Positions 9,514 to 62,109 of a stretch of 64,000 bases of DNA are shown piece after piece; position 1 is the first letter of the stretch; the number at the start of each line of letters is the position of its first letter. Location of the stretch: positions 2,728,001 to 2,792,000 of the forward strand of contig NZ_JADWYR010000001.1 in NCBI RefSeq assembly GCF_015831355.1, written 5' to 3'. The DNA comes from Panacibacter microcysteis (lineage in GTDB: Bacteria; Bacteroidota; Bacteroidia; Chitinophagales; Chitinophagaceae). The translations under genes and the position numbers were made by a program. The notes beneath the pieces were generated by a model. The model did no database searches. It saw nothing but the letters and a program-made list of their open reading frames with translations, and was not told the origin of the DNA.

Positions 9514-9587
9514 GGCCTCGTAGCTCAACTGAATAGAGCATTTGACTACGGATCAAAAGGTTTCAGGTTTGAATCCTGACGAGGTCA
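9514..9587 (+). tRNA. tRNA-Arg (anticodon ACG)
   Basis: A full cloverleaf can be drawn. The acceptor arms GGCCTCG and CGAGGTC pair with one G-U. The D arm is GCTC/GAGC, and the anticodon stem TTTGA/TCAAA encloses loop CTACGGA (anticodon ACG). The T arm TCAGG/CCTGA has loop TTTGAAT. The discriminator is A and CCA is not encoded. It decodes CGN arginine codons after A34-to-inosine editing. A terminator follows closely, and then a toxin-antitoxin pair, as is common at tRNA insertion sites. Confidence 0.95.
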
Positions 9588-9592
9588 CATCT

Positions 9593-9927: not shown

Positions 9928-10734
9928 ATGATTGGACAATACAGATATTTAGAGGACTTTATCAAAGAATTACGTTCCAATGGAAAATATGCATTTTCAT
10001 TACGAGAAGTACGAGGCCGTTTTGAGCAATCGGATGAAGCGATAAAGAAAGCGTTGCAGCGACTAAAAAAGAAGAATGAAATTGCTTTAATAAGGAACGG
10101 GTTTTATGTAATTGTTACTCCCGAATACAGCAGTAAAGGAACACTTCCACCATCGCTTTTTGTCGCAGATTTGATGAAGTTTTTGGAGAGAGATTATTAC
10201 GTAGGGTTGTTAAATGCAGCTACTTATTATGGAGCTGCACACCAGCAACCACAATCTTTTTCAGTGATCACAATGAAGCCAGGTTTGCGTAGTATTCATA
10301 ACGACAACCTGAAAATGAACTTTTATATAAAGAAGGAATGGGACAAAGGTGATATAGTTCAAAAAAAGGTTGATACAGGATATATAAACGTATCATCGCC
10401 GGAATTAACTGCGCTGGACTTAGTATATTATTTTGATCAGGCGGGTGGTTTCAGCAGAGTAGCGACTGTGCTGGAAGAGCTTTGTGAAAGCATTGATCCC
10501 GATAAAATGCTTGACCTTGCGAAACGGTATTCTCCTATAACAGCGGTTCAACGTTTGGGCTTTCTGCTTGACGAGATTTTAAGTATGCCGGATTTAAGCG
10601 AGCCTATAAAAGGCTATTTAAAAACAGTGAACTATTTCCCTGTATTATTAAGACCGCAAAAAGAAAAGCCTGAGATGATTACCGGTAATGATTGGAAAGT
10701 TGTTCAAAATATAGAAATAGAAACCGATTTATGA
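9928..10734 (+). CDS. AbiEi-family antitoxin (type IV toxin-antitoxin)
   Basis: A 268-residue protein of the AbiEi antitoxin family. The N-terminal ~70 residues form a winged helix (SLREVRGRFEQSDEAIKKALQRL), the DNA-binding part that in known AbiE systems represses the operon. The rest is the antitoxin domain, with the family-like stretches YYVGLLNAATYYGAAHQQPQ and VSSPELTALDLVYY. The stop codon overlaps the toxin start as ATGA, so the two are translationally coupled. In characterised AbiE systems the antitoxin counteracts the nucleotidyltransferase without binding it. The gene is more AT-rich than its neighbours and lies right after a tRNA, both suggesting acquisition by transfer. Confidence 0.9.
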   Translation: MIGQYRYLEDFIKELRSNGKYAFSLREVRGRFEQSDEAIKKALQRLKKKNEIALIRNGFYVIVTPEYSSKGTLPPSLFVADLMKFLERDYYVGLLNAATYYGAAHQQPQSFSVITMKPGLRSIHNDNLKMNFYIKKEWDKGDIVQKKVDTGYINVSSPELTALDLVYYFDQAGGFSRVATVLEELCESIDPDKMLDLAKRYSPITAVQRLGFLLDEILSMPDLSEPIKGYLKTVNYFPVLLRPQKEKPEMITGNDWKVVQNIEIETDL

Positions 10735-11513
10735 TTCCTCAGGCATACATAACCGCGTGGCGTAAAAAGGCTCCCTGGCAGGAAGATTTCCAGGTTGAAC
10801 AGGATCTGGTAATTGAGCGTGCCTTGATGGCAATATACAGTAATGAATATTTAAAAGAGCGATTGGCATTCAGAGGGGGAACGGCATTACATAAATTGTA
10901 TCTCTCGCCTGCCGCAAGGTATTCTGAAGATATAGATTTAGTGCAAATCACAGCAGAGCCATTTGGGTCAATTATGGATAAGTTACGAGAGACTTTATCC
11001 TTTTTGGGCGATAAGCCAATACGTAAGCAGAAACAGCATAACATTACATTGGTATACCGCTTTGATTCAGAGGGTGGAATTCCGTTGAGATTAAAAGTGG
11101 AAGTGAATTGTCGGGAACACCATACAATTTTTGGCATTCAGGATGTAAAACATACTATGCAGTCTGAATGGTTTACAGGTGAAGTTTTGATACCGTCATA
11201 CCAGTTACCGGAATTATTGGGTACTAAAATGCGTGCGCTTTATCAGCGCCGAAAAGGGAGAGATTTATTTGATATGTGGTTTGCATTGATTCAAGGCAAG
11301 GTTGATCCACGTGCTGTTATTGAAGCATGGAACTTTTATATGAAAGAAGAACATAATGGTGTAACACAGAAAGAGTTTCTAGAAAATATGGAAAAGAAAA
11401 TTGAAGATGCAGATTTCACAGGCGATATGAATGGATTGCTTAGAAGTGATATTCAATACAATATAAGTGAAGCATACAAATTTGTAAGAACAAATCTTTT
11501 GGAAAAGATTTAA
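10731..11513 (+). CDS. AbiEii nucleotidyltransferase toxin
   Basis: A 260-residue toxin of the AbiEii/AbiGii nucleotidyltransferase family. FRGGTALHKLY near residues 46-56 and RYSEDIDLV near 64-72 are the nucleotide-binding and metal-binding motifs (GG-T and D-x-D) of the polymerase-beta-like fold. Known relatives add nucleotides to tRNA 3' ends and stop growth, giving abortive phage defence. The start at 10731 is chosen because its ATG overlaps the antitoxin stop as ATGA; the frame is open further up but that would overlap the antitoxin by 43 bases. AT-rich like its partner. No integrase or repeat of the tRNA 3' end is visible downstream. Confidence 0.92.
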   Translation: MIPQAYITAWRKKAPWQEDFQVEQDLVIERALMAIYSNEYLKERLAFRGGTALHKLYLSPAARYSEDIDLVQITAEPFGSIMDKLRETLSFLGDKPIRKQKQHNITLVYRFDSEGGIPLRLKVEVNCREHHTIFGIQDVKHTMQSEWFTGEVLIPSYQLPELLGTKMRALYQRRKGRDLFDMWFALIQGKVDPRAVIEAWNFYMKEEHNGVTQKEFLENMEKKIEDADFTGDMNGLLRSDIQYNISEAYKFVRTNLLEKI

Positions 11514-48833: not shown

Positions 48834-49232
48834 ATGAAAAACATACTCATTTGTTTTCTTTTGCTGTTTTCAACCAACATTGCGCTGGCAACGGGTGCAA
48901 AAGATTGTTCAAACTGCATTTTTACGGGCACGGTGGTAGACGCTGTTACAAAAAAGCCAGTTACCGACGTTATGGTCATTGCCCGTGGCATTGAATCAGG
49001 AGACGAACAAAAATTTACCACAGATCAGAATGGTCAATACAAAATACCAACACTCCCTGCCGGCACCTATATCATTCGTTTTGAAAAGCATAGCTATAAG
49101 GCCTGCGAAAAGAAAAACCTTTCGGTAAAGAAAAACACTACCGGTATAAAGATCAATATAGAGCTGATGTATGATGAGGAAGAGCAGGAAGAAGATCATC
49201 ACAACTGGTTACCAAAATATAATATTCTGTAA
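48834..49232 (+). CDS. Carboxypeptidase-regulatory-like secreted protein
   Basis: A 132-residue exported protein: signal peptide MKNILICFLLLFSTNIALATG, then one carboxypeptidase D regulatory-like domain (FTGTVVDAVTKKPVTDVMV ... KFTTDQNGQYKIPTLPAGTYIIRFEKHSYK), which has a transthyretin-like fold. The tail is acidic (DEEEQEEDHH). Such domains bind or present other proteins in the envelope of Bacteroidota. It lies upstream of the polysaccharide locus but 262 bases before it, with a promoter in between, so it is probably independent. Confidence 0.78.
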   Translation: MKNILICFLLLFSTNIALATGAKDCSNCIFTGTVVDAVTKKPVTDVMVIARGIESGDEQKFTTDQNGQYKIPTLPAGTYIIRFEKHSYKACEKKNLSVKKNTTGIKINIELMYDEEEQEEDHHNWLPKYNIL

Positions 49233-49494: not shown

Positions 49495-50313
49495 ATGAAA
49501 AAATTGACTTTCTACACCAAATCTCTGCTCTACCCTGTTTTGTTTCTTTTTCTCATCTCATTTTTTGCAACATCCTGTAAAACCGAACGTATCGCGATTT
49601 TAAAAGACATTCCTGATACAACTTCATTGAGATATATTCCACTGGCAAAGTACACGCCACCTACTGTACGGGTGGATGATATATTAAATATTGTTATTCA
49701 AACACTTGATCCTCAGGCTAATACAATATTAAACCAGGGAAATCTTCCCGCAACTTCCGGTGCGGTATCCGGCGGCTCTGCCGCGCAGGCTGTTATTTCA
49801 GGCTACCTGGTAGGTAAAGATGGTTCTGTACGCATGCCTTACATTGGTACAGTGCACGTAGCAGGTTTAACCACAGAACAGATCAGAGATACTGTAAGTA
49901 ACAGGATCGCTTTCTATTTTAAAGACCCTGTAGTCAATGTTCGTTTTGCCAACTTTAAAGTTACTGTGCTCGGCGAAGTTAAAAACCCGTCTACTTTTCT
50001 TATTCCCAATGAAAAACCAAGCATCATTGATGCGGTGGGCCTGGCGGGAGATATAACGATCTATGGCAGACGGGACAACGTAATGCTGATCAGGGATTAT
50101 GAAGGACAAAAAGAAATTACCAGGATTAACCTTGATAGTTCAAAAAGTGTAAGCTCTCCTTATTTCTTCCTTCGTCCAAACGACGTAATATATGTAGAAG
50201 CCTCTGCTTCTAAAGTGCAGAGTACAGATGCCTACAGAAACCGCAACTACTCCATTATTGCTGCGGCGTTGGGTTTCCTTACAATATTATCAGCAAGACT
50301 ATTGTTTAAATAA
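49495..50313 (+). CDS. Polysaccharide export lipoprotein (Wza-like)
   Basis: A 272-residue outer-membrane polysaccharide export protein. The signal peptide ends in the lipobox FFATSC, lipidated at about Cys28. The Poly_export domain covers about 60-150 (VRVDDILNIVIQTL ... GYLVGKDGSVRMPYIGTVHVAG), followed by a SLBB domain (VTVLGEVKNPSTFLIPNEKP). A final hydrophobic helix (SIIAAALGFLTILSARLLF) ends the protein and would form the outer-membrane pore helix. It works with the Wzc-like kinase, encoded 84 bases downstream, to export the polymer. Confidence 0.92.
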   Translation: MKKLTFYTKSLLYPVLFLFLISFFATSCKTERIAILKDIPDTTSLRYIPLAKYTPPTVRVDDILNIVIQTLDPQANTILNQGNLPATSGAVSGGSAAQAVISGYLVGKDGSVRMPYIGTVHVAGLTTEQIRDTVSNRIAFYFKDPVVNVRFANFKVTVLGEVKNPSTFLIPNEKPSIIDAVGLAGDITIYGRRDNVMLIRDYEGQKEITRINLDSSKSVSSPYFFLRPNDVIYVEASASKVQSTDAYRNRNYSIIAAALGFLTILSARLLFK

Positions 50314-50397
50314 TATTCACCTGTATTTCTTTCATAAGTCTGTTTTCAGACTATACAACTAATTGGTTTTAGCGACTATTTATAAACTATATACTTT

Positions 50398-52842
50398 ATG
50401 CAAAGCAACAATAAACCTAATGATAATACCAATGCTGGTATTGTGGGTTTTAACAATGGGGAGGAAGGTTTTGACTTTAAATACCTGGTAGCAAAGGTTG
50501 CCGGTAACTGGAAATGGTTTCTACTTTCTGCCATTTTATGTGTGGGTCTGGCTGTACTATATATAATGTACGCTATCCCTACATTTACAATCAGTGCAAG
50601 GGTGCTTGTAAACGGTGCTAACTCAGGTAAAATAAACAGTGGTATCACCGAAACATCTATGTTAAGCGACCTCGCGTTGTTCTCACAGCAAAACGATGTA
50701 AACAATGAAATCCAGGAATTATATTCCAGGACGCTTGTAGAAAAAGCAGTAAAAGACCTGCAGCTTAACGTATCATATTGGGCGCTTGCCGGTGTAAGGT
50801 TTGCAGAAGTATATGATAAATCTCCGTTCTTTATAGATCTGCTGGAACTGCGTGGCGGTTTGGAAGACCCGCTGGCATGGGATGTACGTATCATTGGTGA
50901 CAGCCTGAAATTTATGGATGATTATACACCTGATCAGTTCAGGATTAGATTTGGCGATACGGTAAGAAAGAAATTTTGTACGTACGTGGTGAGAAAAAAT
51001 CCCGCTTCTCCGGAAGTGAAAGATTCCACCTTTCCTTTGGGTTTAAGAATACTGACTTACCCGGCCACAAACTACACTTACATGGAGAATTTGTTGGTTT
51101 TTCTTACGGCAACCAACACTACTATGATGGATGTTACATTTGATAATTCAGTGCCGGCCAAAGGTGAGGATTTTCTTAACTACCTTATAAAATCGTACAT
51201 AGATACAAAAGTGCGTGCTAATAATGCCATTGCTGATAGTACCATCAGGTTTATTGACGAGCGTATTACCGGCGTTGCACAAGAGCTAAGCAATGTTGAA
51301 AGCAGGGCTACCAATATTTTAACTTCCGGAGGTATTACAGACATCAACGAAGAGACACGCGTATTAACCGGTGAAAAAAGTGAGGCCAGTGCTGCATTGT
51401 CCAACTACAATGCGAAAGTACAGTCTGTGGATATGATCAACCGCTACCTGAACGATCCTACACGTATCAATGAGCCCCTGCCAACCAGTACAAACATTGA
51501 TGATCCTACGTACATTTCCCAGGTGCAGAAATACAACAGCCTGCAACAACAGAAAGAAACAGCTTTACAGACCAATACCGTGAATAACCCGGTTATTATT
51601 AATCTTGATAACCAGATATCGGTTACCCGTGGTATTTTAAAGAACATTCTTTCTACTTATAAAGAATCTCTAAACTATACATACAATTCTCTTGCCGGCA
51701 GAAATGCAGAAGTGCAGGGCCGTGTGTCAAGAGCACCAATACAGCAGCGTCAATATCTCGAAACATCGCGCAGGCAGGAAGTTTTGCAGCAGTTGTATGT
51801 TTACCTGCTTACTGTAAGAGAGCAGACGGCTGTTACCAAATCAAACAACATAGAACCGGTAAGAATAATAGATGCACCCAAAGCAGGCGTGTACCCGTGG
51901 TGGCCTAACAAGATCATTGTAATAATCGCAGCAATATTTCTTGCTTTGGTTATTCCTTCTGTTGCCATTCTTATAGGCGAATTAAACAGCAATAAAGTAA
52001 CCACACCAAATGATATTACTGCAGCTACATCTACACCGGTAATTGCTGAAATAAGTGCCAGCAAAAATGGAAAAGCCATTGTTGTTACAAAAGACTCCCG
52101 TACGGCTGTGGCAGAGCAGTTCCGCACCTTGCGTACAAGTCTCTTGTCTAAAGTGGCAGAGATATCAAACGGCAAACCCGGTGGTAAAGTAGTAATGCTT
52201 ACATCCACTGTGAGTGGAGAAGGTAAATCTTTTGTTACACTCAACACAGCGGTAACCCTGGCGCTTGCCGGTAAAAAAGTATTACTCGCAGATTTTGAAT
52301 TGCGTAAGTCTCAGTTAGGCACAGTGTTAAACCTCGATGATTCCAAACATGGTATTGCAGAATACCTGGAAGAAAATGGCTCACTGAATGAAGCAATTGT
52401 TCCGTCTGGCATCAATGAAAATCTCTGGATTCTGATGTCGGGCACGTTAGAGTCTAATCCATCAGAAGCATTGTTGAATGACCGTATGAAAGTGCTGTTT
52501 GAAGACATGCGGAACAAATTCGACTACATTGTGGTAGACACACCACCGGCTGCTATAGTAACAGACGCGCAGGTTATCGGCGTGTATGCTGACATTACCC
52601 TTTACGTGGTAAGGCAGAAATACACTTACAAAAAACACGTAGATGTTATTGAAGATCTTAAACACAACAGGAAGCTTAAAAACATGTATGTAATTCTGAA
52701 TGACGTTAAACCTGTTCCGGGTTATAACCAGGGTTATGGTTTAGGTTTCAGGTTCGATGAAGATCATGGTTATTATACACAGGATGATGCCAAAGACAAG
52801 AGGCCTTTCTATAAGAAGATATTTCCTGATACAGAAGCATAA
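50398..52842 (+). CDS. Tyrosine-protein kinase / chain-length determinant (Wzc-like)
   Basis: An 814-residue fusion of a Wzz-type domain and a bacterial tyrosine kinase. Helix 1 is near residues 36-57 and helix 2 near 500-528, with a large coiled periplasmic part between. The cytoplasmic kinase has Walker A TSTVSGEGKSF with Lys610, Walker A' VLLADFELRKSQLG (Glu at the usual second Asp) and Walker B YIVVDTPPA. The C-terminal tail is rich in tyrosine (YNQGYGLGF, HGYYTQDD, FYKK), the autophosphorylation cluster. Cycling of phosphorylation controls polymer length and export. It opens the polymer machinery with the Wza-like lipoprotein. Confidence 0.93.
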   Translation: MQSNNKPNDNTNAGIVGFNNGEEGFDFKYLVAKVAGNWKWFLLSAILCVGLAVLYIMYAIPTFTISARVLVNGANSGKINSGITETSMLSDLALFSQQNDVNNEIQELYSRTLVEKAVKDLQLNVSYWALAGVRFAEVYDKSPFFIDLLELRGGLEDPLAWDVRIIGDSLKFMDDYTPDQFRIRFGDTVRKKFCTYVVRKNPASPEVKDSTFPLGLRILTYPATNYTYMENLLVFLTATNTTMMDVTFDNSVPAKGEDFLNYLIKSYIDTKVRANNAIADSTIRFIDERITGVAQELSNVESRATNILTSGGITDINEETRVLTGEKSEASAALSNYNAKVQSVDMINRYLNDPTRINEPLPTSTNIDDPTYISQVQKYNSLQQQKETALQTNTVNNPVIINLDNQISVTRGILKNILSTYKESLNYTYNSLAGRNAEVQGRVSRAPIQQRQYLETSRRQEVLQQLYVYLLTVREQTAVTKSNNIEPVRIIDAPKAGVYPWWPNKIIVIIAAIFLALVIPSVAILIGELNSNKVTTPNDITAATSTPVIAEISASKNGKAIVVTKDSRTAVAEQFRTLRTSLLSKVAEISNGKPGGKVVMLTSTVSGEGKSFVTLNTAVTLALAGKKVLLADFELRKSQLGTVLNLDDSKHGIAEYLEENGSLNEAIVPSGINENLWILMSGTLESNPSEALLNDRMKVLFEDMRNKFDYIVVDTPPAAIVTDAQVIGVYADITLYVVRQKYTYKKHVDVIEDLKHNRKLKNMYVILNDVKPVPGYNQGYGLGFRFDEDHGYYTQDDAKDKRPFYKKIFPDTEA

Positions 52843-52905
52843 ATTATAAGGAATAAATGGTTGTTGCCCAGTCTAGTAATCAATGCTCAAAATAAAATTC
52901 CATTT

Positions 52906-53805
52906 ATGAAAAACAGTATATCCAGGCCAGTCATTGTAATCGGTTCAGGTCGGTCTGGTACAACCATTATTTCCGAAATACTCTTCCGGCACGAAGATTT
53001 GGCCTGGCCGTCTAATTACCAGGAAATGTTCCCGGCAAAACCAGGCATTAACCTTTTTCGCCTGGCTTTTGAAAATAAATTGTGGCGTCTGCAGGGCCAG
53101 AAACCGCAGTTAAACAAGGTTTCTAAACTTAATAAGATTCTGTTTAAACCTGCAGAAGCCTACAGGTTTTGGGAATACTTAACCGGGCCGGATGTAGATT
53201 TTTCACGAGGCTTTCTGCTTCACCAGAAACCATCAGCAGACGACCTGAAAAGAATTCACAAGGCATTCAATAAAATAGTACGGTACCAGTCTAAAAAAAG
53301 ACTGGCATTTAAAATAACAGGCCCGGCTAGAATAGGTTATCTTAAAACTGTTTTTCCCGATGCTGTTTTTATCAATATTGTAAGAGAGCCTATTGCAACC
53401 ATTAATTCGTGGCTAAACGTAGAGTTTTGGCAGGACAAAGGAAAACACCAGTTGTGGTGGACCGGCGCTTACACACCACAGGAACTGGAATGGGCAGAAA
53501 AGAATGCTGATAAGCCGGAACTGCTGGCAGCTATGCAATACCGCAAACTACAGGAAACAACAGAAAAAGAAATAGAAGAGCACAAAGTAAAGTGCCTGAC
53601 CGTACGTTATGAAGATTTTGTGGCACAACCTGCAGCAACAATCCATAGCATTATAGCTTTTGCAGATCTAAAAAAATCATCGCTGGTAGATACATATTTG
53701 CAGGGAATAAAAATCTATAACCAGAACAAGAACGACGAAAAAACCGGCGAAGACCCACAGGCAACAGATATGCAGCGCATTTTACAGGGAGTTTATGCAT
53801 TTTAG
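52906..53805 (+). CDS. Sulfotransferase, family A copy 1
   Basis: A 299-residue cytoplasmic sulfotransferase that would transfer sulfate from PAPS to a carbohydrate hydroxyl. VIGSGRSGTTIISEIL near residues 10-25 is the 5'-phosphosulfate loop; FINIVREPIATINSWL contains the Arg region of the 3'-phosphate site. It shares with the copies at 58829 and 59882 the stretches HEDLAW.SN and FSRGFLL and FKITGPAR. The ATG 52906 is preferred because the P-loop strand follows at once; an upstream TTG at 52861 adds 15 unconserved residues. It follows the kinase by 63 bases and is followed by a repeat pair. Confidence 0.88.
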   Translation: MKNSISRPVIVIGSGRSGTTIISEILFRHEDLAWPSNYQEMFPAKPGINLFRLAFENKLWRLQGQKPQLNKVSKLNKILFKPAEAYRFWEYLTGPDVDFSRGFLLHQKPSADDLKRIHKAFNKIVRYQSKKRLAFKITGPARIGYLKTVFPDAVFINIVREPIATINSWLNVEFWQDKGKHQLWWTGAYTPQELEWAEKNADKPELLAAMQYRKLQETTEKEIEEHKVKCLTVRYEDFVAQPAATIHSIIAFADLKKSSLVDTYLQGIKIYNQNKNDEKTGEDPQATDMQRILQGVYAF

Positions 53806-53819
53806 TTTTTTGGAAACAG

Positions 53820-53882
53820 GCAGTATAACACCTGTCAGCACCGGTTGTGTCACTCACTTGTACGCTATAACAGGTGGCAGCA
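53820..53882 (-). repeat. Dispersed intergenic repeat, copy 18 (GTGACAC type, left half of a pair)
   Basis: ACCGGTTGTGTCACTCACTT, then GTACGCTATAACAGGTGGCAG. It forms an inverted pair with the next copy. Confidence 0.8.
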
Positions 53883-53908
53883 ACGATACTGCATGTGCAG
53901 CAGGTAGA

Positions 53909-54004
53909 AAGTCTTTACGCTGCCAGCGCACAGCAATGCTTCAACAGTTGAAGTGTGCGACGCAACAAAAGCTTAATAGCAGTACAACTGCCGGGTACAT
54001 AAAT
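53909..54004 (+). repeat. Dispersed intergenic repeat, copy 19 (GCGACGC type, right half of a pair)
   Basis: TTTACGCTGCCAGCGCACAG arm, then GTTGAAGTGTGCGACGCAAC, then ACTGCCGGGTACATAAA. It lies inside the polysaccharide locus between sulfotransferase and flippase genes. Confidence 0.85.
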
Positions 54005-54015
54005 TTATTATAAGC

Positions 54016-54040
54016 TTGCCCGAAAGGGCAACTTTGTTTT
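54016..54040 (+). terminator. Hairpin before the flippase gene, weak terminator or leader
   Basis: TTGCCC-GAAA-GGGCAA, a 6-bp stem with a stable GAAA loop, followed by CTTTGTTTTG. It lies about 60 bases before the flippase start and might reduce read-through. Confidence 0.4.
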
Positions 54041-54076
54041 GTAAGCTGTAAAGCTTAATAACCACTGAACAATCTT

Positions 54077-55651
54077 ATGGGAGTGAATAAACAAAAGCTC
54101 GTAAAAACAGGTATATGGCAGGTGCTGAATACTGTTGTTGTACTGGTGTCTCAAATCGGTGCAAATGCAATACTGGCCCGCTATGTAAGCGATGTGGAGT
54201 TTGGTTTAATGGCCATTACCAATGCTTTTGTAAACTTTGCCAGCTTCTTTTCTGAAGCCGGTATGGGCGATGCATTGCTGCAAAGAAAAGAGGTGGAACC
54301 CCAGCATAAAAATGCTGCGTTGTATTTCAGCCTCGTGGTATCTGGTTTGCTTTATGTTATACTGTATTTTACCGCTCCGTGGATATCCACCTTTTACGAT
54401 AAGCCCGAACTGGTAACGATTCTGCGGGTATTGGGTCTTAGTTTCATCCTGTTATCTCTTGGCTCATCTTCTTACAACCTGATGCAGAAGAACTTCAATT
54501 TTAAACAGGTTTTCTACAGTGATAGTTTAAGCTTATTTGCTTCTAACATATTAGGTGTTGCACTGGCCATGTATGGCTATGGTGTTTGGTCGCTTGTGTG
54601 GTCTATTCTCTTTTACAATGCTGCAAGGCTGATCATGGTATGGATCATTGAGCCAATACCTTTAAAACTCGGCGCCTCACTGCGCCACTGGAAAGACCTT
54701 GCCGGCTATGGTGCGGGTTTAACGTTGATTCGTTTAAACAATTTTGTAAGCGGTTTTGGTATTATGCTCGAGATTGGTAAACTGGTAAGCATTGCATTAC
54801 TGGGCGCCTTTGAACGCTCTTACAGGTATACCAATTTACCGGTACGTTATATTGGCGACATGATTCAGAAAATCATGATGCCATTTATGGCCAAGATGCA
54901 GGACGAAATGGATAAGCTCTATGTGTTCTTTTTGCGTGGTATGTCTTTCTCCAATTCTTTGCTTGTACCCATCAGCGTATTTGGTGTAGTCTTCTGTAAA
55001 CCTATTGTCTTAATCTTACTCGGGCACAAATGGTTAAATGCAATTGTGCCAATGCAGATATTGTTCATTTCGCTTCCTTTCAGGATTACCACAAAAGTAG
55101 CAGATGCACTTATGCGAGCAAAGCAGCTGGTCTTCAGAAATGCAGGCAGAAAATTTCAATATACCATTGTATTGTGTGTAGGTATATATATAGGTTGGTT
55201 GTTTGACAAAAACGGTCTCACCGGCATATCTACAGCAGTTACACTGGCGGCAGTCTTTAATTATGTGGCAATGTTGATCACGATCAAAAAGAGGGTATTT
55301 CCTGAAGGCTGGCAGAAAATGATTTTGCATCCTTTTAAAAACGGGTTATGGCTGTCTGTGGTTTTTGTTTTGCCTGCATATGCCGTTTATTATGGCCTCG
55401 ATTACGTTTTAAAAGAACAGGTGCTGTCATTTATAATTGTTACCTGCGTGTTGGGTGCATTTGTGCTGTTTGTTTTCCTGAAAAAACCCACTTTACTTGG
55501 CCAGGATGTAGCTGATATGCAAAAAGAGATGGTTAAAATGGTGAAGAAAGGTGGCAAAGGTGGCGGTGGCAAAAAGAAACGCATGAGAGAACAGCAGCAA
55601 ATAGAAAACGAAAACAATATTCCAACCGTTACAGAACCATTGAACGATTAA
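54077..55651 (+). CDS. Polysaccharide flippase (MOP family, WzxC-like)
   Basis: A 524-residue membrane protein with about 12-14 helices that flips lipid-linked saccharide units across the inner membrane. The start MGVNKQKLVKTGIWQVLNTVVVLVSQIGANAILARYVSDVEFGLM matches the polysaccharide biosynthesis protein group. After the last helix the tail becomes very basic and glycine-rich (KKGGKGGGGKKKRMREQQQ), unusual for this family. It is followed after 9 bases by the sulfotransferase gene at 55661. Confidence 0.9.
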   Translation: MGVNKQKLVKTGIWQVLNTVVVLVSQIGANAILARYVSDVEFGLMAITNAFVNFASFFSEAGMGDALLQRKEVEPQHKNAALYFSLVVSGLLYVILYFTAPWISTFYDKPELVTILRVLGLSFILLSLGSSSYNLMQKNFNFKQVFYSDSLSLFASNILGVALAMYGYGVWSLVWSILFYNAARLIMVWIIEPIPLKLGASLRHWKDLAGYGAGLTLIRLNNFVSGFGIMLEIGKLVSIALLGAFERSYRYTNLPVRYIGDMIQKIMMPFMAKMQDEMDKLYVFFLRGMSFSNSLLVPISVFGVVFCKPIVLILLGHKWLNAIVPMQILFISLPFRITTKVADALMRAKQLVFRNAGRKFQYTIVLCVGIYIGWLFDKNGLTGISTAVTLAAVFNYVAMLITIKKRVFPEGWQKMILHPFKNGLWLSVVFVLPAYAVYYGLDYVLKEQVLSFIIVTCVLGAFVLFVFLKKPTLLGQDVADMQKEMVKMVKKGGKGGGGKKKRMREQQQIENENNIPTVTEPLND

Positions 55652-55660
55652 TATTCCTGC

Positions 55661-56401
55661 ATGACGAAATTTATTGTTTTTACCACGCCGCGCACCGGCT
55701 CAACTTTATTGGTTAAGTCGCTGGATACACACCCTGATATTTTTTGTGCAGGAGAAATATTCCTGTTGAGTGGTACACAGTTCCATGGCGAATGCAGTTT
55801 TAAATTCTGGAAACTTCCCTTGCCCAAAAAAGCAATCTACCTGCTCAATTTCCCTAATATGTGGATGAACCTGCAATCTTTTCTCAACAGGTTTTTTACC
55901 GCTGCAAGAGGAGAGAAGGCAAAAGGGTTTAAACTCATGCATTTTCAAACGGCTTACCTGCCGGGCATTACCGGTTATTTAAAGAACAATAATGTAAAAG
56001 TTATCCTTTTGCTGCGCGAAAACTTGTTAAAGAATACTTTGTCTGACCTCAGGGCAAGACATACAGGTGTTTACCACAACAGTGGTGCAGGCACAGAGAA
56101 GCTGCCTAAGTTTAAAGTTGATCTTACCACCCTCGGCAAAAAAATGGCCGAGATCGACACTTTCAATAAGCAACTGGAGCAGGTAACTGCTTCAATGGAC
56201 CGCTTAAAAATAACCTACGAAGAATTTGATAACTGGGACGCAACAATGAATAAGGTGCTGAATTTTATCAATGTTCCTGACAACAAAATTGCGCCGGTAT
56301 CAAAGAAGCTAAACCCCGATAAACTGGAAGATATGATCGAGAATTATGATGAAATGAAAACATGGCTGCAACAAAACAACTATGCACATTTTCTCGATTA
56401 A
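55661..56401 (+). CDS. Sulfotransferase, family B copy 1
   Basis: A 246-residue sulfotransferase of a second type (Stf0-like). FTTPRTGSTLLVKSLDTHPD near residues 6-25 is the phosphosulfate loop, and GEIFLLSG is shared with its tandem copy. VILLLRENLLKNTLSDLRA is the 3'-phosphate region. It uses PAPS on a sugar acceptor (inference from the locus). Copy 2 follows after 15 bases and the two share layout and many motifs, so they look like a tandem duplication. Confidence 0.86.
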   Translation: MTKFIVFTTPRTGSTLLVKSLDTHPDIFCAGEIFLLSGTQFHGECSFKFWKLPLPKKAIYLLNFPNMWMNLQSFLNRFFTAARGEKAKGFKLMHFQTAYLPGITGYLKNNNVKVILLLRENLLKNTLSDLRARHTGVYHNSGAGTEKLPKFKVDLTTLGKKMAEIDTFNKQLEQVTASMDRLKITYEEFDNWDATMNKVLNFINVPDNKIAPVSKKLNPDKLEDMIENYDEMKTWLQQNNYAHFLD

Positions 56402-56416
56402 ACAAACATACATCGC

Positions 56417-57178
56417 ATGACCAATTTTATCATATTCACCACGCAGCGAAGCGGTTCAACGGTGTTAACCAAGACACTCGATGAACATCCGCAGGTTTTT
56501 GTAGCCGGTGAAATTTTTCATACCAACAACGAAATACACCATCCAGAGTGGCATTTTCCTTTCAAAAATTACCTGGGTAAAGGAACAGCCCGCGGTATGC
56601 TCATGAAAGTGAATAAAGCGCTGAACAATATTGGTATGCAGAACAAAATAAAAAAGCACCTCGATGCTTTTTATACTGCAACAGAAGCCGCAGAAACCGC
56701 CAGGGGGTTTAAGCTCATGCAGTCGCAGGTTAAATCAAATCCGGCTATCTGGCAATACATAAAAAACAATGATGTAAAAATAATCGTGCTGGTGCGCAAA
56801 AATATTTTCGAAACAGCACTTTCGCGTTACCGGGGCAGGGAAACAAAAGTGTATCACTCTGATAGCACTACCACCCAAAAGCAAAAATTACAAATACCGG
56901 TAGCGGAATTTACGGCATGGCTTCGTACACTGGAAGAAGCCAATAAAAAGCTGCTTCAGCAAACAGAAGGTATGAACCGGCTGGTACTTTATTATGAAGA
57001 TTTTGCAAACTGGAACAATATACTGCAGCAAACTTTTGGTTTCCTGCAGGTAGATATGATCGCTATTCCGCCGGCCTTGCAAAAGGTAGGCGCAAAAGAC
57101 TGGCGCGCAGGTATAGAGAATTACGAAGAACTCGAAAAGGCGTTACAGCAAACCAATTATGCCGGCTGGTTAAATTAG
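56417..57178 (+). CDS. Sulfotransferase, family B copy 2
   Basis: A 253-residue tandem paralog of the gene at 55661. FTTQRSGSTVLTKTLDEHPQ is the phosphosulfate loop, GEIFHTNNE follows, and IIVLVRKNIFETALSRYRGR is the 3'-phosphate region. The copies have diverged, so they may modify different positions of the same polymer. A dispersed repeat follows 17 bases after its stop codon and separates it from the polymerase-like gene. Confidence 0.86.
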   Translation: MTNFIIFTTQRSGSTVLTKTLDEHPQVFVAGEIFHTNNEIHHPEWHFPFKNYLGKGTARGMLMKVNKALNNIGMQNKIKKHLDAFYTATEAAETARGFKLMQSQVKSNPAIWQYIKNNDVKIIVLVRKNIFETALSRYRGRETKVYHSDSTTTQKQKLQIPVAEFTAWLRTLEEANKKLLQQTEGMNRLVLYYEDFANWNNILQQTFGFLQVDMIAIPPALQKVGAKDWRAGIENYEELEKALQQTNYAGWLN

Positions 57179-57194
57179 ACAATCAGTATTTTTG

Positions 57195-57296
57195 TGAGCC
57201 CGGCTGCAGCACATCTATGAAGCTTTGGTTGCGTCGCACACTTGTACTGTTGAAACACCAGGCAGCAAAAGCGAAGATTGAAGCGTATAGCGATAG
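57195..57296 (-). repeat. Dispersed intergenic repeat, copy 20 (GCGACGC type, long form)
   Basis: GAGCCCGGCTGCAGCACATC, then GGTTGCGTCGCACACTTGTAC, then AAGCGAAGATTGAAGCG. It lies between sulfotransferase B2 and the polymerase-like gene. Confidence 0.85.
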
Positions 57297-57355
57297 TGCA
57301 ACTTAAACAACCGTAAGCAGTAAAACTGCATAAAGATTATCGAAAAAATTCTTTT

Positions 57356-58810
57356 ATGGCAATGACTTTAAAATTGAAAGATGCGTGGTATTGGATAGCC
57401 AATTTTGCCATACTTGCTTCTTGCTCGGTGTCTATGATGATGGATGATCCCATCTATCTTATTGCAGTAGCTGCACCACTTATTTTCCTGGACAGGGCAT
57501 ATGTTGTACCGGTGTTTATTTTTATTGCCTGTATCGAAGGTTCATTCGTTTCAGATGATGCTTCATCAAAAGCAGAGACCTATGCCATTGCTGTGGCGCT
57601 GCCATTCTTTTTGTACGATATCATTACCCGCAATAAAATAAAAGTACCATTTAAGCTGTCGCTTTTATACGTTTTCTTCGGTGTATTCGTCATTTCAGGC
57701 ATGATCACCTGGGGCGCACATCCCGAGATCAAGCGTTATGTTTCCCAGGCGTTATACATGAAACTGGGCATCTTCATCTACGTAAAAATGTTTATGAAGA
57801 TCATCAAGCTCATCTTCTTTTTCATGTACCTGAAAGTGCTTATCAACAGCGATAAAGAATTACTTTACCGCGGGCTTACACTTGTAAAAGACATGGCGGC
57901 GTATCTTATAGCACTGGTGTTAGTTGATATGCTGTTGTTTGGTGCCGTAACAGAAAAGTTCGATACGCTTCACTTTGGCGATGCGCACCACGGAGACTTT
58001 TCCTCAAACATGAATGCATTAGGTGTTATGTTGTATATAGGCATATTCGAACCTAAGTCAACTTTGTTCAAACGCTTTGTAAACCTTGCAGGCCTGGGTT
58101 GTCTGTTGTTTGTAATCATGAATATCGCCTCAAGAAACGGGTTGCTCAACTTTGTTATTCTCGGTTGCCTGGGCGGGTTTATTGCCTTGTGGAATTTGCG
58201 GTGGGGTGCCAAGGTATTAATCGTTGCGGCAGCCGTTGTGGTAGCCGGTGCCTGCGGTTACATATTTAAAGATTCGCCCACTATCGAGCGTTTTATTTAT
58301 CAGACAGAAGAAGAGGATGGTGGTGAGCGTATCGCTTATTGGAAGGCAGGTTACCAGGCTGTGTCCCGCAACCCTGTATTTGGTGTTGGTGGAGATGAAA
58401 CTGCGTCTTTATGGGCAACATTCCAATATGCAAAGGAGGTAGACCCGCACGTTATGCACAATACCTTCCTTGAGTTTGCGGTAGAGTATGGGCTGCTGGG
58501 TGAAATATTTTTCCTGATTTACGTAGGTGTCATTCTATGGCACAGTTACAGAAACTTTATGTTCGCAGCAAAGTATAATGATATCATATTGGCCGCACCC
58601 GGTATCGCTTATTTTATATCCATCTTTGCGGGTCTGTTTGTAAGCCGTATATGGGAATCTACACTGTGGTATTATTCAACGCTGGTTTTTGCAACATATG
58701 TTGTGTACCGGAAACCGATAGAAGACGCATTTAGTAAACGAAAAAAATATTTAGTACATGGCCTGCCAGATCCGTTAAAAGATCCTGCAATTGCCATACA
58801 CCCAGCTTAA
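57356..58810 (+). CDS. O-antigen ligase / polymerase-like membrane protein
   Basis: A 484-residue membrane protein with about 12 helices, of the O-antigen ligase (Wzy_C) family, which joins or polymerises glycan units on the periplasmic side. The large periplasmic loop contains VSRNPVFGVGGDETASLW and DPHVMHNTFLEFAVEYGLLGE, the family core with its conserved His and Glu. In this locus it is the likely polymerase of the exported polymer; ligase activity cannot be excluded. Sulfotransferase A2 follows after 18 bases. Confidence 0.88.
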   Translation: MAMTLKLKDAWYWIANFAILASCSVSMMMDDPIYLIAVAAPLIFLDRAYVVPVFIFIACIEGSFVSDDASSKAETYAIAVALPFFLYDIITRNKIKVPFKLSLLYVFFGVFVISGMITWGAHPEIKRYVSQALYMKLGIFIYVKMFMKIIKLIFFFMYLKVLINSDKELLYRGLTLVKDMAAYLIALVLVDMLLFGAVTEKFDTLHFGDAHHGDFSSNMNALGVMLYIGIFEPKSTLFKRFVNLAGLGCLLFVIMNIASRNGLLNFVILGCLGGFIALWNLRWGAKVLIVAAAVVVAGACGYIFKDSPTIERFIYQTEEEDGGERIAYWKAGYQAVSRNPVFGVGGDETASLWATFQYAKEVDPHVMHNTFLEFAVEYGLLGEIFFLIYVGVILWHSYRNFMFAAKYNDIILAAPGIAYFISIFAGLFVSRIWESTLWYYSTLVFATYVVYRKPIEDAFSKRKKYLVHGLPDPLKDPAIAIHPA

Positions 58811-58828
58811 TCAATATTAATCCTGCTT

Positions 58829-59743
58829 ATGAGTGATTTCCTATCGAAAAACGAAAAGCTGCTGGAAAAGCCTGTTATCATATTTGGTACCGGCCGTTCC
58901 GGTACTACCGTAATATCAGACATTATTTTGCATCACGAAGACCTGGCCTGGCATAGTAACTGGCAGGAGCTGTTGCCAAAGTCTGCAGCCATTAATTACC
59001 TGCGCCGTGCATTCGATAATGGCTTATGGAACATTACGGGCATGAACACGCAGAATAACAAATCACTTGTCAACCAGGTATTGTTCAGGCCTATAGAGCG
59101 CTACGATTTCTGGGAGAGTATTACCGGCCCCCGCATTGATTTTTCACGAGGTTTTTTACTCAACGAACGCGCCACCGAAGCCGAACGTGCGCACATGCGT
59201 ATGCATTTTGCGAAAATGGTGAAATACCAACACCGCAAAAGACTGGCATTTAAACTTACAGGCCCGGCACGTATGGAATACCTGCTCAGTGTTTTTCCTG
59301 ATGCGCAGTTTGTGCAGATCACCAGGGAGCCTGTGGCTACAGTACGCTCCTGGCTGGAGATACACTGGAGCAATCAAATGACGGAACAACTATGGTGGGA
59401 TGGTGCATATACAGAAGAAGAAAAAGTAAAGGCGAAAGAGTTAGCTAAAAACCCTGCACTGTTTGTGGCCTTCCAGTATAAAAAGTTAATGGAAACAACG
59501 GCTTTGGAAACGGCCAAGCTGGGTGCAGATGTTTATACAGCACGCTACGAAGATTTTGTAAAAGATGCCAGTGGGTTCATTGCAAACATGATGCAACACC
59601 TCGGTTTGCCTGAATCTAAAAGAGTAAACGCATTTATGAGTAAAATCTCTGTGCAAAACAGGAACAACCGTTCTGCAAAATCTGATAAAACCGCAATAGA
59701 CGAAGACACAAAACGTAAGATACTCGAGATCGTAAACGGCTGA
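58829..59743 (+). CDS. Sulfotransferase, family A copy 2
   Basis: A 304-residue paralog of the genes at 52906 and 59882. VIIFGTGRSGTTVISDIIL near 16-34 is the phosphosulfate loop; HEDLAWHSNWQELLPKS, RIDFSRGFLLNERAT, KLTGPARMEYL and FVQITREPVATVRSWLEI are the shared stretches. It is closest to the copy at 59882. A dispersed repeat separates the two copies. Confidence 0.88.
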   Translation: MSDFLSKNEKLLEKPVIIFGTGRSGTTVISDIILHHEDLAWHSNWQELLPKSAAINYLRRAFDNGLWNITGMNTQNNKSLVNQVLFRPIERYDFWESITGPRIDFSRGFLLNERATEAERAHMRMHFAKMVKYQHRKRLAFKLTGPARMEYLLSVFPDAQFVQITREPVATVRSWLEIHWSNQMTEQLWWDGAYTEEEKVKAKELAKNPALFVAFQYKKLMETTALETAKLGADVYTARYEDFVKDASGFIANMMQHLGLPESKRVNAFMSKISVQNRNNRSAKSDKTAIDEDTKRKILEIVNG

Positions 59744-59774
59744 TGAGTGAGTAAAGCTTTGCAGCCTTTTTTTA

Positions 59775-59873
59775 TACGCTTCCATCTTCGCGTTTGCTGA
59801 GTAGTATTGTTACAGTGGAAGAGTGCGACGCAAGAGAAGCTTCATTAATAACCCAACTGCCGGGTACACAAAA
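59775..59873 (+). repeat. Dispersed intergenic repeat, copy 21 (GCGACGC type, long form)
   Basis: TACGCTTCCATCTTCGCGTT, then GTGGAAGAGTGCGACGCAAG, then AACTGCCGGGTACACAAAA. It fills the gap between the two tandem family-A sulfotransferases. Confidence 0.85.
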
Positions 59874-59881
59874 AAACGCTT

Positions 59882-60826
59882 ATGAATGATAAACAAATAA
59901 AGTATGAAGAACTGCTGGAACGGCCAATTTTGATCTTCGGCAGTGGCCGCAGTGGCACCACTATTTTATCTGAGATCATTTTTCAGCATGAAGATCTTGC
60001 ATGGCACAGCAACTACCAAGAAATTCTTACCAAATCTACCTGGATCAATTACCTGCGTCGTTTTTGGGATAATAAAATGTGGCGGCTGGTGAAGTACTGG
60101 AAATTTGTTGGTGTAAGTAAAAATACACGGCAGCAATTCGGATCTTTTTTAAAACTGCTCATCTTTAACCCGATAGAGCGTTATGCTTTCTGGGAGAGCG
60201 TTACAGGCCAGCGCATCGATTTTTCACGAGGTTTTTTGCTCAATGAAAAAGCTACGCCTGAAGAAATACATCACATCCGTTCATTTCTTGCAAAGCAGGT
60301 AAAATACCAGGGCCGTAAAAGATTGATCATGAAGTTTACCGGGCCTGCAAGGTTAGAATATCTCACCAGCATTTTTCCGGATTTGATTGTGGTAAGTATT
60401 GCAAGAGAGCCGATAGCCACAGTGCGTTCATGGCTCGAAGTTGGTTTCTGGCAGCGCATGGGTATTGACAAACTCTGGTGGATTGGCGCCTACTCCAAAG
60501 AAGAGGAAGCGGCTGCAGAAAAGCTGAAAGGTGATGCACCGCTGATCACGGCGTTTCAATATCGTAAACTGATGGAAACAACACAATACGAGATCAACAA
60601 ACTTGGGTTGAATGTACTGGAAACACGCTACGAAGATTTTGTAAAAGACCCCAGGGCATTCATTCAGCAGGTAATGCATCATATGCAGTTGCCACAATCA
60701 AAATATGTAGATAATTATATGACGGAAATGGTTGTAAGCAACCGCAATTCAAGAACATCGAAGAAGACAACCTTCACAGAAGAGACAAAGCAACAAATTA
60801 TGGAAATTGTGGGTGAGTATGCATAG
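59882..60826 (+). CDS. Sulfotransferase, family A copy 3
   Basis: A 314-residue paralog of the gene at 58829. ILIFGSGRSGTTILSEIIF is the phosphosulfate loop, followed by HEDLAWHSNYQEILTKS, RIDFSRGFLLNEKAT, MKFTGPARLEYL and VVSIAREPIATVRSWLEV. It carries about ten extra residues near position 80-95 relative to copy 2. The DNA around FSRGF (GATTTTTCACGAGG) is identical in all three family-A copies, pointing to recent duplication or gene conversion. Confidence 0.88.
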   Translation: MNDKQIKYEELLERPILIFGSGRSGTTILSEIIFQHEDLAWHSNYQEILTKSTWINYLRRFWDNKMWRLVKYWKFVGVSKNTRQQFGSFLKLLIFNPIERYAFWESVTGQRIDFSRGFLLNEKATPEEIHHIRSFLAKQVKYQGRKRLIMKFTGPARLEYLTSIFPDLIVVSIAREPIATVRSWLEVGFWQRMGIDKLWWIGAYSKEEEAAAEKLKGDAPLITAFQYRKLMETTQYEINKLGLNVLETRYEDFVKDPRAFIQQVMHHMQLPQSKYVDNYMTEMVVSNRNSRTSKKTTFTEETKQQIMEIVGEYA

Positions 60827-60851
60827 CAGGCGGTAAGCAAAAGCAATATTA

Positions 60852-60906
60852 TGAGCCATGCTACATTACTACTATTAAGCTGTCGTTGCGTCGCACTCTT
60901 GTACAA
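60852..60906 (-). repeat. Dispersed intergenic repeat, copy 22 (GCGACGC type)
   Basis: GAGCCATGCTACATTACTAC, then GTCGTTGCGTCGCACTCTTGT. It lies just upstream of the glycosyltransferase start; an ATG at 60886 inside this repeat is therefore unlikely to be used. Confidence 0.8.
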
Positions 60907-60945
60907 CAACAATTCTATTCAACACATACACAACCTTCATCAGCA

Positions 60946-62109
60946 ATGCGATTGAACTTTATCAATAACTTTTTTCAATCACCTTCAGTAAACAGTGGTC
61001 TTGTACCAAAGATAAAAGTTGCACACGTAATACGCGTATTCAGCTATGGTGGTGCAGAAGTTTTGTTGCGTGAATTCTTTGCCCAGCCTGAGTTCAAAGA
61101 ACAAATTACATCAGACCTTTTTGTGCTCGATCATAAAAAACTGGGGTTGAAAGATGATGTAATGCCAAATATCAATAAGTTTTATTTCTATAAAATTACC
61201 ACCTGGAAGTTCTTCTTTGAGTACCTGCGTTTTCTTAAAGACATCAAAAAAGGCAATTACGATATTGTACACATGCACCTGCCTGTTGCAGGCTGGATGG
61301 GCGTTGTAGCCAAACTCTTTACCGGCAAAAAAACAAAATATATCTATAGCGAGCATAACCTGGTAAACTTTTACAGTAAATACAATTATTACCTCAGCGG
61401 CTGGACGTATGGCTTTTTTGATAGTGTCATTTATGTATCGCACGAAGTAGGAGAGGTGATCCGTAAAATACAAAAGGGCTGGTTCTTCAAAACCAACCAC
61501 CCCGTTACTATTCTCAATGGTATTGATACCAATAAATTTCATTGCACACACAGGCAACAGCTAAGCCCTGCACAAACGTTGACTATAGGATTGGTAGCAA
61601 GGTTCAGGCCGCAGAAACGTGTAGACCGCTGGGCAGAAGTTGCTGCTGCGGTACACAAAAAAAATCCGGCTATCAAATTCCTGATGGTAGGAGATGGCCC
61701 AAGTGATGAGCTGTTGAGGCAGCGCATCAAAGAGCTCAATGTCGAAGGCGTTATAGAATTGCCGGGTATGCTAACCGATACCTATGCAGCGTATAAACGC
61801 ATAGACATATTCCTGCTTACCAGTGATTTTGAAGGCCTCCCCCTTGCATTGCTTGAGGCAATGAGTTGTGGTTGTGTGCCGGTAATAAGTAATGTTGGTG
61901 GTATTAAGCAGCTTGATTTTACAGGCATCGGGTATAAGTTCGATGATTTTAACCCCGATGCAATTGCTGATAAAATTGTGGCATATACGCAAAACCCTGA
62001 TCAGTATTTTGTGGAAAGCGACCGTTCGAGGGATTTTGTAATTAAAAATTATTCGCTGACCAAACAGGTAAATGAGATCATTGATTTGTACAGGGAATTG
62101 GGTAAGTAA
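60946..62109 (+). CDS. Glycosyltransferase, GT4-like
   Basis: A 387-residue GT-B glycosyltransferase that adds a sugar to the growing unit on the cytoplasmic side. VIRVFSYGGAEVLLREFF near the N-terminus and SDFEGLPLALLEAMSCGCVPVISNVGG near 288-315 (with the E-x7-E donor site) are the GT4 signatures. ATG 60946 is chosen because the upstream ATG at 60886 lies in a dispersed repeat and adds unconserved residues. It is the only glycosyltransferase in the window, so the rest of the repeat-unit assembly, including the initiating enzyme, must be elsewhere. Confidence 0.88.
   Translation: MRLNFINNFFQSPSVNSGLVPKIKVAHVIRVFSYGGAEVLLREFFAQPEFKEQITSDLFVLDHKKLGLKDDVMPNINKFYFYKITTWKFFFEYLRFLKDIKKGNYDIVHMHLPVAGWMGVVAKLFTGKKTKYIYSEHNLVNFYSKYNYYLSGWTYGFFDSVIYVSHEVGEVIRKIQKGWFFKTNHPVTILNGIDTNKFHCTHRQQLSPAQTLTIGLVARFRPQKRVDRWAEVAAAVHKKNPAIKFLMVGDGPSDELLRQRIKELNVEGVIELPGMLTDTYAAYKRIDIFLLTSDFEGLPLALLEAMSCGCVPVISNVGGIKQLDFTGIGYKFDDFNPDAIADKIVAYTQNPDQYFVESDRSRDFVIKNYSLTKQVNEIIDLYRELGK

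Follow-up and report, generated by a model that had tools for sequence, protein, structure and literature searches.

Ten genes in a 64,000-nt window of the genome of Panacibacter microcysteis (Chitinophagaceae, Bacteroidota) probably form the export and polymerisation half of a dispersed system that would make a multiply sulfated, Wzx/Wzy-dependent, uronate-containing exopolysaccharide. The window, that is, the whole stretch of DNA analysed, covers C1:2728001-2792000 (C1 and C2 are contig labels; the genome comprises 5.21 Mb in 11 contigs). Sulfated sugar polymers have been described chiefly in animals, in algae, in cyanobacteria and in a small number of further bacteria. The ten genes lie at window positions 49495-62109, all on the + strand, in the order Wza-Wzc-STa-Wzx-STb-STc-Wzy-STd-STe-GT4, as determined from the list of open reading frames (ORFs) and from Pfam and NCBIfam profiles; Wza, Wzc, Wzx and Wzy were all present together. 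The features are given below, with bit scores and with the identity of homologues in the other seven of eight genomes carrying the set (carriers).

49495..50313, +: Wza-type outer-membrane export lipoprotein (PF02563 57.1 bits, SLBB; 56-82% identical orthologue in 7/7 other carriers)
50398..52842, +: Wzc-type co-polymerase/tyrosine autokinase (PF02706, PF13807, PF13614; TIGR01007 133.5 bits, cut-off 108)
52906..53805, +: sulfotransferase STa (PF13469 72.5 bits, cut-off 27); start probably ATG 52906 rather than the alternative opening TTG 52861
54077..55651, +: Wzx-type flippase (PF13440 233 bits)
55661..56401, +: Stf0-like sulfotransferase STb (PF09037 24.5 bits, cut-off 22; PF13469 25.2, below the cut-off of 27)
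56417..57178, +: Stf0-like sulfotransferase STc (PF13469 31.3 bits, cut-off 27; PF09037 24.6 bits, cut-off 22)
57356..58810, +: Wzy-type polymerase of the O-antigen ligase/polymerase family (PF04932 65 bits; homologue in 8/8 carriers, 35-70% identical in the others)
58829..59743, +: sulfotransferase STd (PF13469 57.2 bits, cut-off 27)
59882..60826, +: sulfotransferase STe (PF13469 48 bits, cut-off 27; 68-91% identity in 7/7 other carriers)
60886..62109, +: GT4 glycosyltransferase, third gene of a conserved STd-STe-GT4 trio (PF00534 94 bits; 68-91% in 7/7 other carriers, adjoining STe in each); start probably ATG 60946 rather than TTG 60886
48834..49232, +: carboxypeptidase-regulatory-like domain protein just upstream of Wza (PF13620 52 bits; same neighbour in the full-type relatives L068, L069, L070 and L071)

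An earlier note, made from the letters of the window, had described export and polymerisation genes and one glycosyltransferase interleaved with five sulfotransferase genes of two families. The ten + strand ORFs and their Pfam matches bear this out, three of the sulfotransferases being of the PF13469 type (STa, STd, STe) and two Stf0-like (STb, STc). All ten genes are intact in a relative of the same genus, with nonsynonymous divergence (dN) of 0.06-0.22 and near-saturated synonymous divergence (dS); in a comparison of 16 genes between two genomes of the genus, all frames were open, with dN of 0.06-0.36 and dS again near saturation. The ten genes are maintained, since their frames are intact and dN is low. 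Chance or decayed ORFs were rejected on the same grounds and on the family matches. GC content across the locus was 0.41-0.44, without a step suggestive of foreign DNA.

The products of STa to STe are near certain to be genuine sulfotransferases using 3′-phosphoadenosine 5′-phosphosulfate (PAPS). Each exceeds the cut-off of PF13469 or PF09037, and each shows the clear phosphosulfate loop already pointed out in the earlier note: GSGRSGTT, GTGRSGTT and GSGRSGTT in the PF13469 type, TTPRTGST and TTQRSGST in the Stf0-like type. In alignments of relatives hand-picked from fetched loci, R23-S24-G25-T26-T27, R166 and S174 were invariant in 26/26 sequences of the PF13469 type, and R11, G13, S14 (an R-x-G-S loop), R119 and S128 in 15/15 Stf0-like ones. 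We take R23-S24-G25-T26-T27 and R-x-G-S to be the 5′-phosphosulfate loop, and R166...S174 and R119...S128 to be the 3′-phosphate site. STa, STd and STe were mutually 43-57% identical, and STb was 39% identical to STc; the five genes therefore probably descend from two ancestral types.

AlphaFold2 models, built for STd and STb from alignments of fetched relatives (predicted local distance difference test scores 83 and 87.5, respectively), gave a predicted fold that matches PAPS sulfotransferases. The STd model aligned best with mycobacterial STF9 (VIA-align; Z 15.2, root-mean-square deviation [rmsd] 4.1, 252 residues); values were similar for mycobacterial STF1 (Z 15.1, rmsd 4.3, 249 residues) and for tyrosylprotein sulfotransferase (TPST; Z 14.7). 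The STb model aligned best with Stf0 (1tex; Z 13.1, rmsd 4.3, 203 aligned residues), heparan sulfate sulfotransferases ranking lower, by a modest margin given that unrelated P-loop proteins scored Z 10-11.7. All Foldseek rows for the PDB at E ≤ 0.001 (29/29 for STd, 28/28 for STb) were sulfotransferases or the sulfotransferase-fold retinol dehydratase. Sequence searches of solved structures gave marginal matches for both alignment A3 (best 9e-4, to TPST) and the STb/STc profile (A4; best 1.8e-5, to the lipopolysaccharide [LPS] sulfotransferase NodH). STb and STc resemble the Stf0 family in exceeding the Pfam cut-off for PF09037 and in the predicted fold of STb; they differ from the Stf0 equivalog NF047724 (trehalose 2-sulfotransferase), for which STc scored 25 bits against a cut-off of 400 and STb gave no match.

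Genome-wide, 13 sulfotransferase genes were placed: the five of the window, three at C1:477474-480560, four at C1:1121457-1128163 and one at C2:231854-232693. The group of three belongs to a second locus (C1:474849-482774, - strand), which lies about 2.3 Mb from the window locus and reads, from high to low coordinate, CysQ-GT4b-STy-STz-STx-Ugd-GT4a. CysQ (TIGR01331 269 bits, cut-off 229) removes 3′-phosphoadenosine 5′-phosphate (PAP), the by-product of sulfotransfer. Ugd would supply a uronate sugar donor; it matched the nucleotide sugar dehydrogenase model TIGR03026 (471 bits, cut-off 190) and stayed under the listed equivalog cut-offs (e.g. TuaD, 526 of 700). No export genes were seen among the neighbours of this locus.

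Relatives were sought by scanning a genome collection (84,980 species) for two conserved peptides, a scan that finds close relatives only. It returned 13 loci with STa/STd/STe-like genes, labelled Chitinophagaceae bacterium, Bacteroidetes bacterium, Limnovirga, Parafilimonas and Ilyomonas. The named carriers, all Chitinophagaceae, were Limnovirga soli KCS-6, Parafilimonas terrae DSM 28286 and Ilyomonas limi 17mud1-8. STd-STe-GT4 stood in this order in 9/13 loci (in one, GT4 was cut by the contig end), three loci were interrupted by contig ends inside or beside the trio, and that of UBA7600 has no STd. A STa/d/e profile derived solely from window sequences was found in 8/195 Chitinophagaceae genomes, and a STb/c profile in the same eight. 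Stretches matching PF13469 numbered at least 9-13 in these eight carriers and 1-3 in the other 35 positive genomes, and were absent from 152; since the scans for PF13469 and for adenosine 5′-phosphosulfate (APS) kinase scored the best first-look candidates (up to 14 and 18 per genome), the carrier counts are lower bounds. Across the phylum, alignment A3 matched 4/395 genomes: two carriers, G511 (7e-37) and G538 (3e-16). The G511 neighbourhood was, by its BLAST labels, a different cluster of sulfotransferases and glycosyltransferases. Gene orders in the carriers are given below; the occurrence of STy, STz, STx, GT4a, GT4b, Ugd and CysQ was read in the fetched stretches.

Own genus (G000, G058): Wza-Wzc-STa-Wzx-STb-STc-Wzy-STd-STe-GT4, and CysQ-GT4b-STy-STz-STx-Ugd-GT4a; G058 has one more gene between CysQ and GT4b
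Limnovirga soli: Wza-Wzc-STa-Wzx-STb-STx'-Wzy-STd-STe-GT4, and CysQ-GT4b-STy-STz-STc-STx-Ugd (STx' is a 39-41% identical relative of STx)
UBA4407: ..STa-STy-Wzx-STb-STx'-Wzy-STd-STe-GT4, and CysQ-STz-GT4b-STc-STx-Ugd
UBA7600: as UBA4407 minus STd, plus GT4a; a further STc-like gene lies close to another copy of GT4 (37% and 52%; L086)
P. terrae and SZAS-21: Wza-Wzc-Wzx-Wzy, STy-STc-STb, a cluster with Glf, PGT, MBOAT, a further gene and STd-STe-GT4, and CysQ-STz-GT4b-Ugd
Ilyomonas limi: Wza-Wzc-STy-Wzx-Wzy, STd-STe-GT4, CysQ-CysC-CysD-CysN-STz-GT4b-Ugd-SDR-GT4a, and a lone STb

All eight carriers contained Wza, Wzc, Wzx, Wzy, STb, STe, GT4, CysQ, GT4b, STy, STz, Ugd (in the second locus in each) and CysC, and by hand count each had five to nine sulfotransferase genes of the system. 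STa was present in the five full-type carriers; the other three had two STa/d/e profile matches each. Some of the sulfotransferase genes change place. The second locus holds STy in the own genome, in G058 and in L. soli; in UBA4407, UBA7600 and I. limi this gene lies between Wzc and Wzx, and in P. terrae and SZAS-21 it belongs to the STy-STc-STb cluster. STc is part of the window-type locus in G058 and the own genome, whereas L. soli, UBA4407 and UBA7600 carry it in the second locus. The variable location of STy, STc and STx-like genes, in the export locus, in the second locus or apart, is difficult to account for unless all of them belong to one pathway, and both loci are likely to make one product. 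The distance between the loci, about 2.3 Mb on C1, would also fit two sulfated glycans, the window locus making one polymer and the second locus modifying another surface glycan, with relocation due to interchangeability or chance. That several sulfated glycans are made is plausible, given a third locus (C1:1121457-1138461) with its own Wza- and Wzc-like, priming and four sulfotransferase genes. Nevertheless, across the eight genomes the STy and STc orthologues swap between exactly these two loci, no export genes were seen near the second, and GT4b, Ugd, CysQ and STz occur in 8/8 genomes with the STe-GT4 pair; we therefore regard separate products as unlikely.

The genome can make PAPS, because the APS kinase gene cysC (C2:709329-709937) is directly followed by the ATP sulfurylase gene sat (C2:709973-711121). 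The absence of PAPS synthesis was rejected on finding this pair. The earlier note had placed such genes outside the window, correctly as it turned out: among the window proteins there was no APS kinase and no match to the PAPS_reduct family (CysD/CysH), the Sat-type ATP sulfurylase not being searched by profile. The CysC-Sat pair was present in all seven carriers other than I. limi; in the latter, cysC (apsK), cysD and cysN sit in the second locus, each over its NCBIfam cut-off, and CysC is 57% identical. Across the family, counting APS kinase at E ≤ 1e-30 (a threshold set after seeing a gap in the E-values), the enzyme was found in 41/43 PF13469-positive and 12/152 negative genomes (Fisher p 8e-29), or in 33/35 and 12/152 without the eight carriers (p 3e-24), p-values that shared descent inflates. 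At the threshold of the tool (E ≤ 0.001), the counts were 42/43 and 27/152. The two positive genomes without a counted enzyme were G072, with a partial match (8e-5), and G092, which is 60% complete. In non-carrier genomes, an APS kinase gene and a PF13469 gene lay no more than 5 kb apart in 23/33 and no more than 1 kb apart in 16/33. In two non-carriers (L124:7247-8640, L125:8140-9602), the sulfotransferase beside the APS kinase is 41% identical to the lone copy of the own genome (C2:231854).

The history of the set was gauged by correlating pairwise identities with those of Wzc, a measure taken without a null model or tree. The correlation was 0.96 for Wzy, 0.92 for Wza and Wzx, 0.89 for CysQ, 0.85 for STd, 0.83 for Sat, 0.81 for STy and GT4, 0.72 for STc, 0.71 for STe, and 0.64 for STz and Ugd.

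Several observations weigh against the proposed system. STb (0.38), CysC (0.28) and GT4b (0.25) correlated poorly with Wzc. Some sulfation steps are dispensable, since UBA7600 has no STd, I. limi lacks STc (it gave a single STb/c profile match), and the loci fetched from three carriers showed neither STa nor STx. The linkage of sulfotransferases to export genes is not universal, because the Wza-Wzc-Wzx-Wzy cluster of P. terrae and SZAS-21 contains no sulfotransferase; its Wzc, Wzx and Wzy are 34-44% identical to those of the window. The co-occurrence does not amount to eight independent events, as the carriers represent five genera and may largely be one clade, and the STb/c profile was built from seven of the eight (G064 not among them) plus one further metagenome-assembled genome (MAG). 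No priming phosphoglycosyltransferase (PGT) was found in the window, the seven Bac_transf (PF02397) matches of the genome all lying elsewhere, and other glycosyltransferases among its 34 PF00534 matches could act in the pathway. Finally, PAPS could also serve assimilation, since the genome encodes a CysH-family reductase: one strong CysH-like protein passed PRK02090 (phosphoadenylyl-sulfate reductase; 230.7 of 154) and TIGR00434 (177.5 of 165.1), and did not pass the specific APS- and PAPS-reductase models TIGR02055 and TIGR02057. It carries a CC...CxxC motif, a putative mark of APS reductases. As for STb, the I. limi protein (L122:6155-6895) is 81% identical to the own one; this far exceeds the 51-58% of full-locus relatives outside the genus, which makes horizontal transfer probable.

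The sulfotransferases could act on a glycolipid, an LPS-like glycan or a protein, with Wzx and Wzy as mere neighbours. The nearest fold to STb is the trehalose (glycolipid) enzyme Stf0, those of STd include TPST, the best solved-structure match of the STb/STc profile is NodH, and in P. terrae the trio lies away from Wzx/Wzy. Such fold neighbours, at 14-19% identity, cannot fix the acceptor, however, and heparan sulfate sulfotransferases match too; moreover, the sulfotransferase genes are interleaved with Wzx and Wzy in five genomes. Other acceptors thus seem very unlikely, and the Wzx/Wzy product is the likely substrate.

The gene content suggests that the polymer would be sulfated at several positions, as the earlier note had supposed. 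For synechan, made by the xss cluster of Synechocystis sp. PCC 6803, two sulfotransferases, eight glycosyltransferases and a sulfate:sugar ratio of about 2:8 are reported (PMC8205485). If this rough match between gene number and chemistry held for the present gene set, a densely sulfated unit would be expected. In its fullest form, the proposal would be a repeat of about four sugars, with uronate and perhaps galactofuranose, sulfated by eight position-specific enzymes to a heparin-like density (about two sulfates per sugar) and encoded at four or more chromosomal sites; we put this forward tentatively, and as a whole it is rather doubtful. It is possible, though less likely, that the eight genes are redundant or conditional and serve few positions on a lightly sulfated polymer. 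STa, STd and STe are paralogues, as are STb and STc, and in synechan, loss of xssE reportedly did not substantially alter exopolysaccharide or bloom formation (PMC8205485). Against redundancy, STd (59-85% in all pairs of seven genomes) and STe (68-91% relative to the copy in the window) form lasting separate orthologue groups; distinct roles fit better, because the two persist separately while being 53-57% identical to each other.

The earlier note had remarked on a single glycosyltransferase facing many sulfotransferases. The ratio is indeed unusual, with eight sulfotransferases against three GT4s (the window GT4, GT4a and GT4b) and a probable priming enzyme over the two loci; 'single', however, was only a local count. 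The search for further glycosyltransferases that it had proposed gave the 34 PF00534 matches, and gene order in the relatives ties in the second locus with its two GT4s. A Glf-PGT pair adjoins the STd-STe-GT4 trio in P. terrae (L040) and SZAS-21 (L038), and ORFs resembling it stand beside the trio in L036, L039 and L041 (Pfam confirmation of Glf and MBOAT is limited to SZAS-21). In the own genome a Glf-PGT pair stands by itself (C2:1113005-1114965; PGT C2:1114237-1114965; PF03275 172 bits, PF02397 217 bits); its members share 77% and 69% identity with those of P. terrae. Because its homologue adjoins the trio in P. terrae and SZAS-21, this PGT is the strongest candidate for the priming enzyme absent from the locus, and the pair suggests galactofuranose among the sugars.

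The pathway could be as follows. Sat and CysC would make PAPS, and CysQ would clear PAP. A priming PGT, with that beside Glf as the best candidate, would begin a lipid-linked repeat unit, which the window GT4, GT4a and GT4b would extend from donors including a uronate (Ugd) and possibly UDP-galactofuranose (Glf). Up to eight cytoplasmic sulfotransferases (STa-STe, STx, STy, STz) would sulfate different positions of the lipid-linked unit, perhaps one site per enzyme; Wzx would then flip the unit, Wzy polymerise it, and Wzc and Wza govern length and export.

Other observations were made along the way. In the third locus, besides the genes named above, Wzx, Wzy, Gmd and Fcl were named from reading the translations, without a profile (Gmd and Fcl pointing to probable fucose); G058 has much of this locus, and its fetched stretch (L084) contains three of the four sulfotransferases. 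Cells of the own strain perhaps produce another sulfated polymer from this third locus. The second locus of G058 contains, between GT4b and CysQ, a 547-aa GINT1_N protein (glucosamine inositolphosphorylceramide transferase-like; L083:11806-13449, 134.6 bits); the own second locus lacks such a gene. Two ORFs about 5.9 kb apart (C1:460895-461230 and C1:466748-467083; L024) have the same length and are identical over the 60 residues compared; they resemble a repeated element, perhaps rRNA operons. In the window, an AbiEi/AbiEii type IV toxin-antitoxin pair (9928-11513, +; PF09407 109.5 bits, PF08843 117.9 bits) lies downstream of a tRNA-Arg gene (9514-9588), some 340 bases away. A scan for sigma-70-type promoters gave 22 sites versus 31.7 in shuffled sequences, i.e. 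fewer than by chance; terminator-like sites numbered 23 versus 13.1 and were unusable for setting operon limits.

A coherent set of sulfotransferases that travels with polymer genes in eight carriers, named strains among them, makes sulfation by Bacteroidota directly testable, and the family-wide pairing of APS kinase and sulfotransferase offers a simple genomic marker for it. Should the polymer carry sulfate at high density, its enzymes would provide new position-specific means of making heparin-like polymers, and the carrier group would be a candidate source, no more, of the sulfated polymers of granular sludge, whose producers are largely unassigned (PMC10483923). In the open-access literature, no report of sulfated-polysaccharide synthesis in Chitinophagaceae was found among the matches listed. 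No paper listed joined Parafilimonas to a sulfotransferase, and none of those listed for sulfotransferases and sulfated polysaccharides in Bacteroidota dealt, by its title, with polymer synthesis by bacteria. One paper mentions Chitinophagaceae and sulfotransferase once each (PMC5641341), and a marine mat survey records no sulfotransferase in its Bacteroidetes MAGs (PMC9723792). A review puts at six the bacterial genera from which sulfated polysaccharides have been reported (PMC11625862); some papers, one of 2026, call these polymers exclusively cyanobacterial among bacteria (PMC8205485, PMC13390465).

The nearest described cases for which counts were found have two or three sulfotransferase genes each (PMC8205485, PMC11641403, PMC13390465, PMC7356697). 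Synechan resembles the present system in its Wzx/Wzy-type export, cluster sulfotransferases of distinct subfamilies and part of the machinery, its outer-membrane export gene, elsewhere in the genome (PMC8205485); it differs in coming from cyanobacteria rather than Bacteroidota and in its two sulfotransferases to eight glycosyltransferases, against five to one locally and eight to three with the second locus here. The capsule clusters of Vibrio sp. KMM 8419 (three sulfotransferase genes, one in an O-antigen part; PMC11641403) and Cobetia marina KMM 1449 (PMC11766843) likewise join PAPS-making and sulfotransferase genes to polysaccharide genes, and Cobetia also has CysQ, comparable to the cysC-cysD-cysN, CysQ and sulfotransferase genes in one locus of I. 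limi. These are, however, ABC-transporter capsules of marine bacteria with solved structures, whereas the present system is predicted from its genes. The wps-1 locus of the soil-inhabiting Actinoplanes missouriensis shares Wzx/Wzy/Wzz and two sulfotransferases of different families (PMC13390465); it is that of an actinomycete, with only those two, and its sulfation is likewise unproven. Pontiella (PMC7356697) and granular sludge (PMC10483923) provide bacterial sulfated glycosaminoglycan-like exopolymers; Pontiella differs in having three putative glycosaminoglycan sulfotransferases, one of them clustered with eight potential hexosaminyltransferases (PMC7356697). The logic of the system is thus a known one; what is new is the phylum, the inverted ratio of enzymes and the dispersal of the genes.

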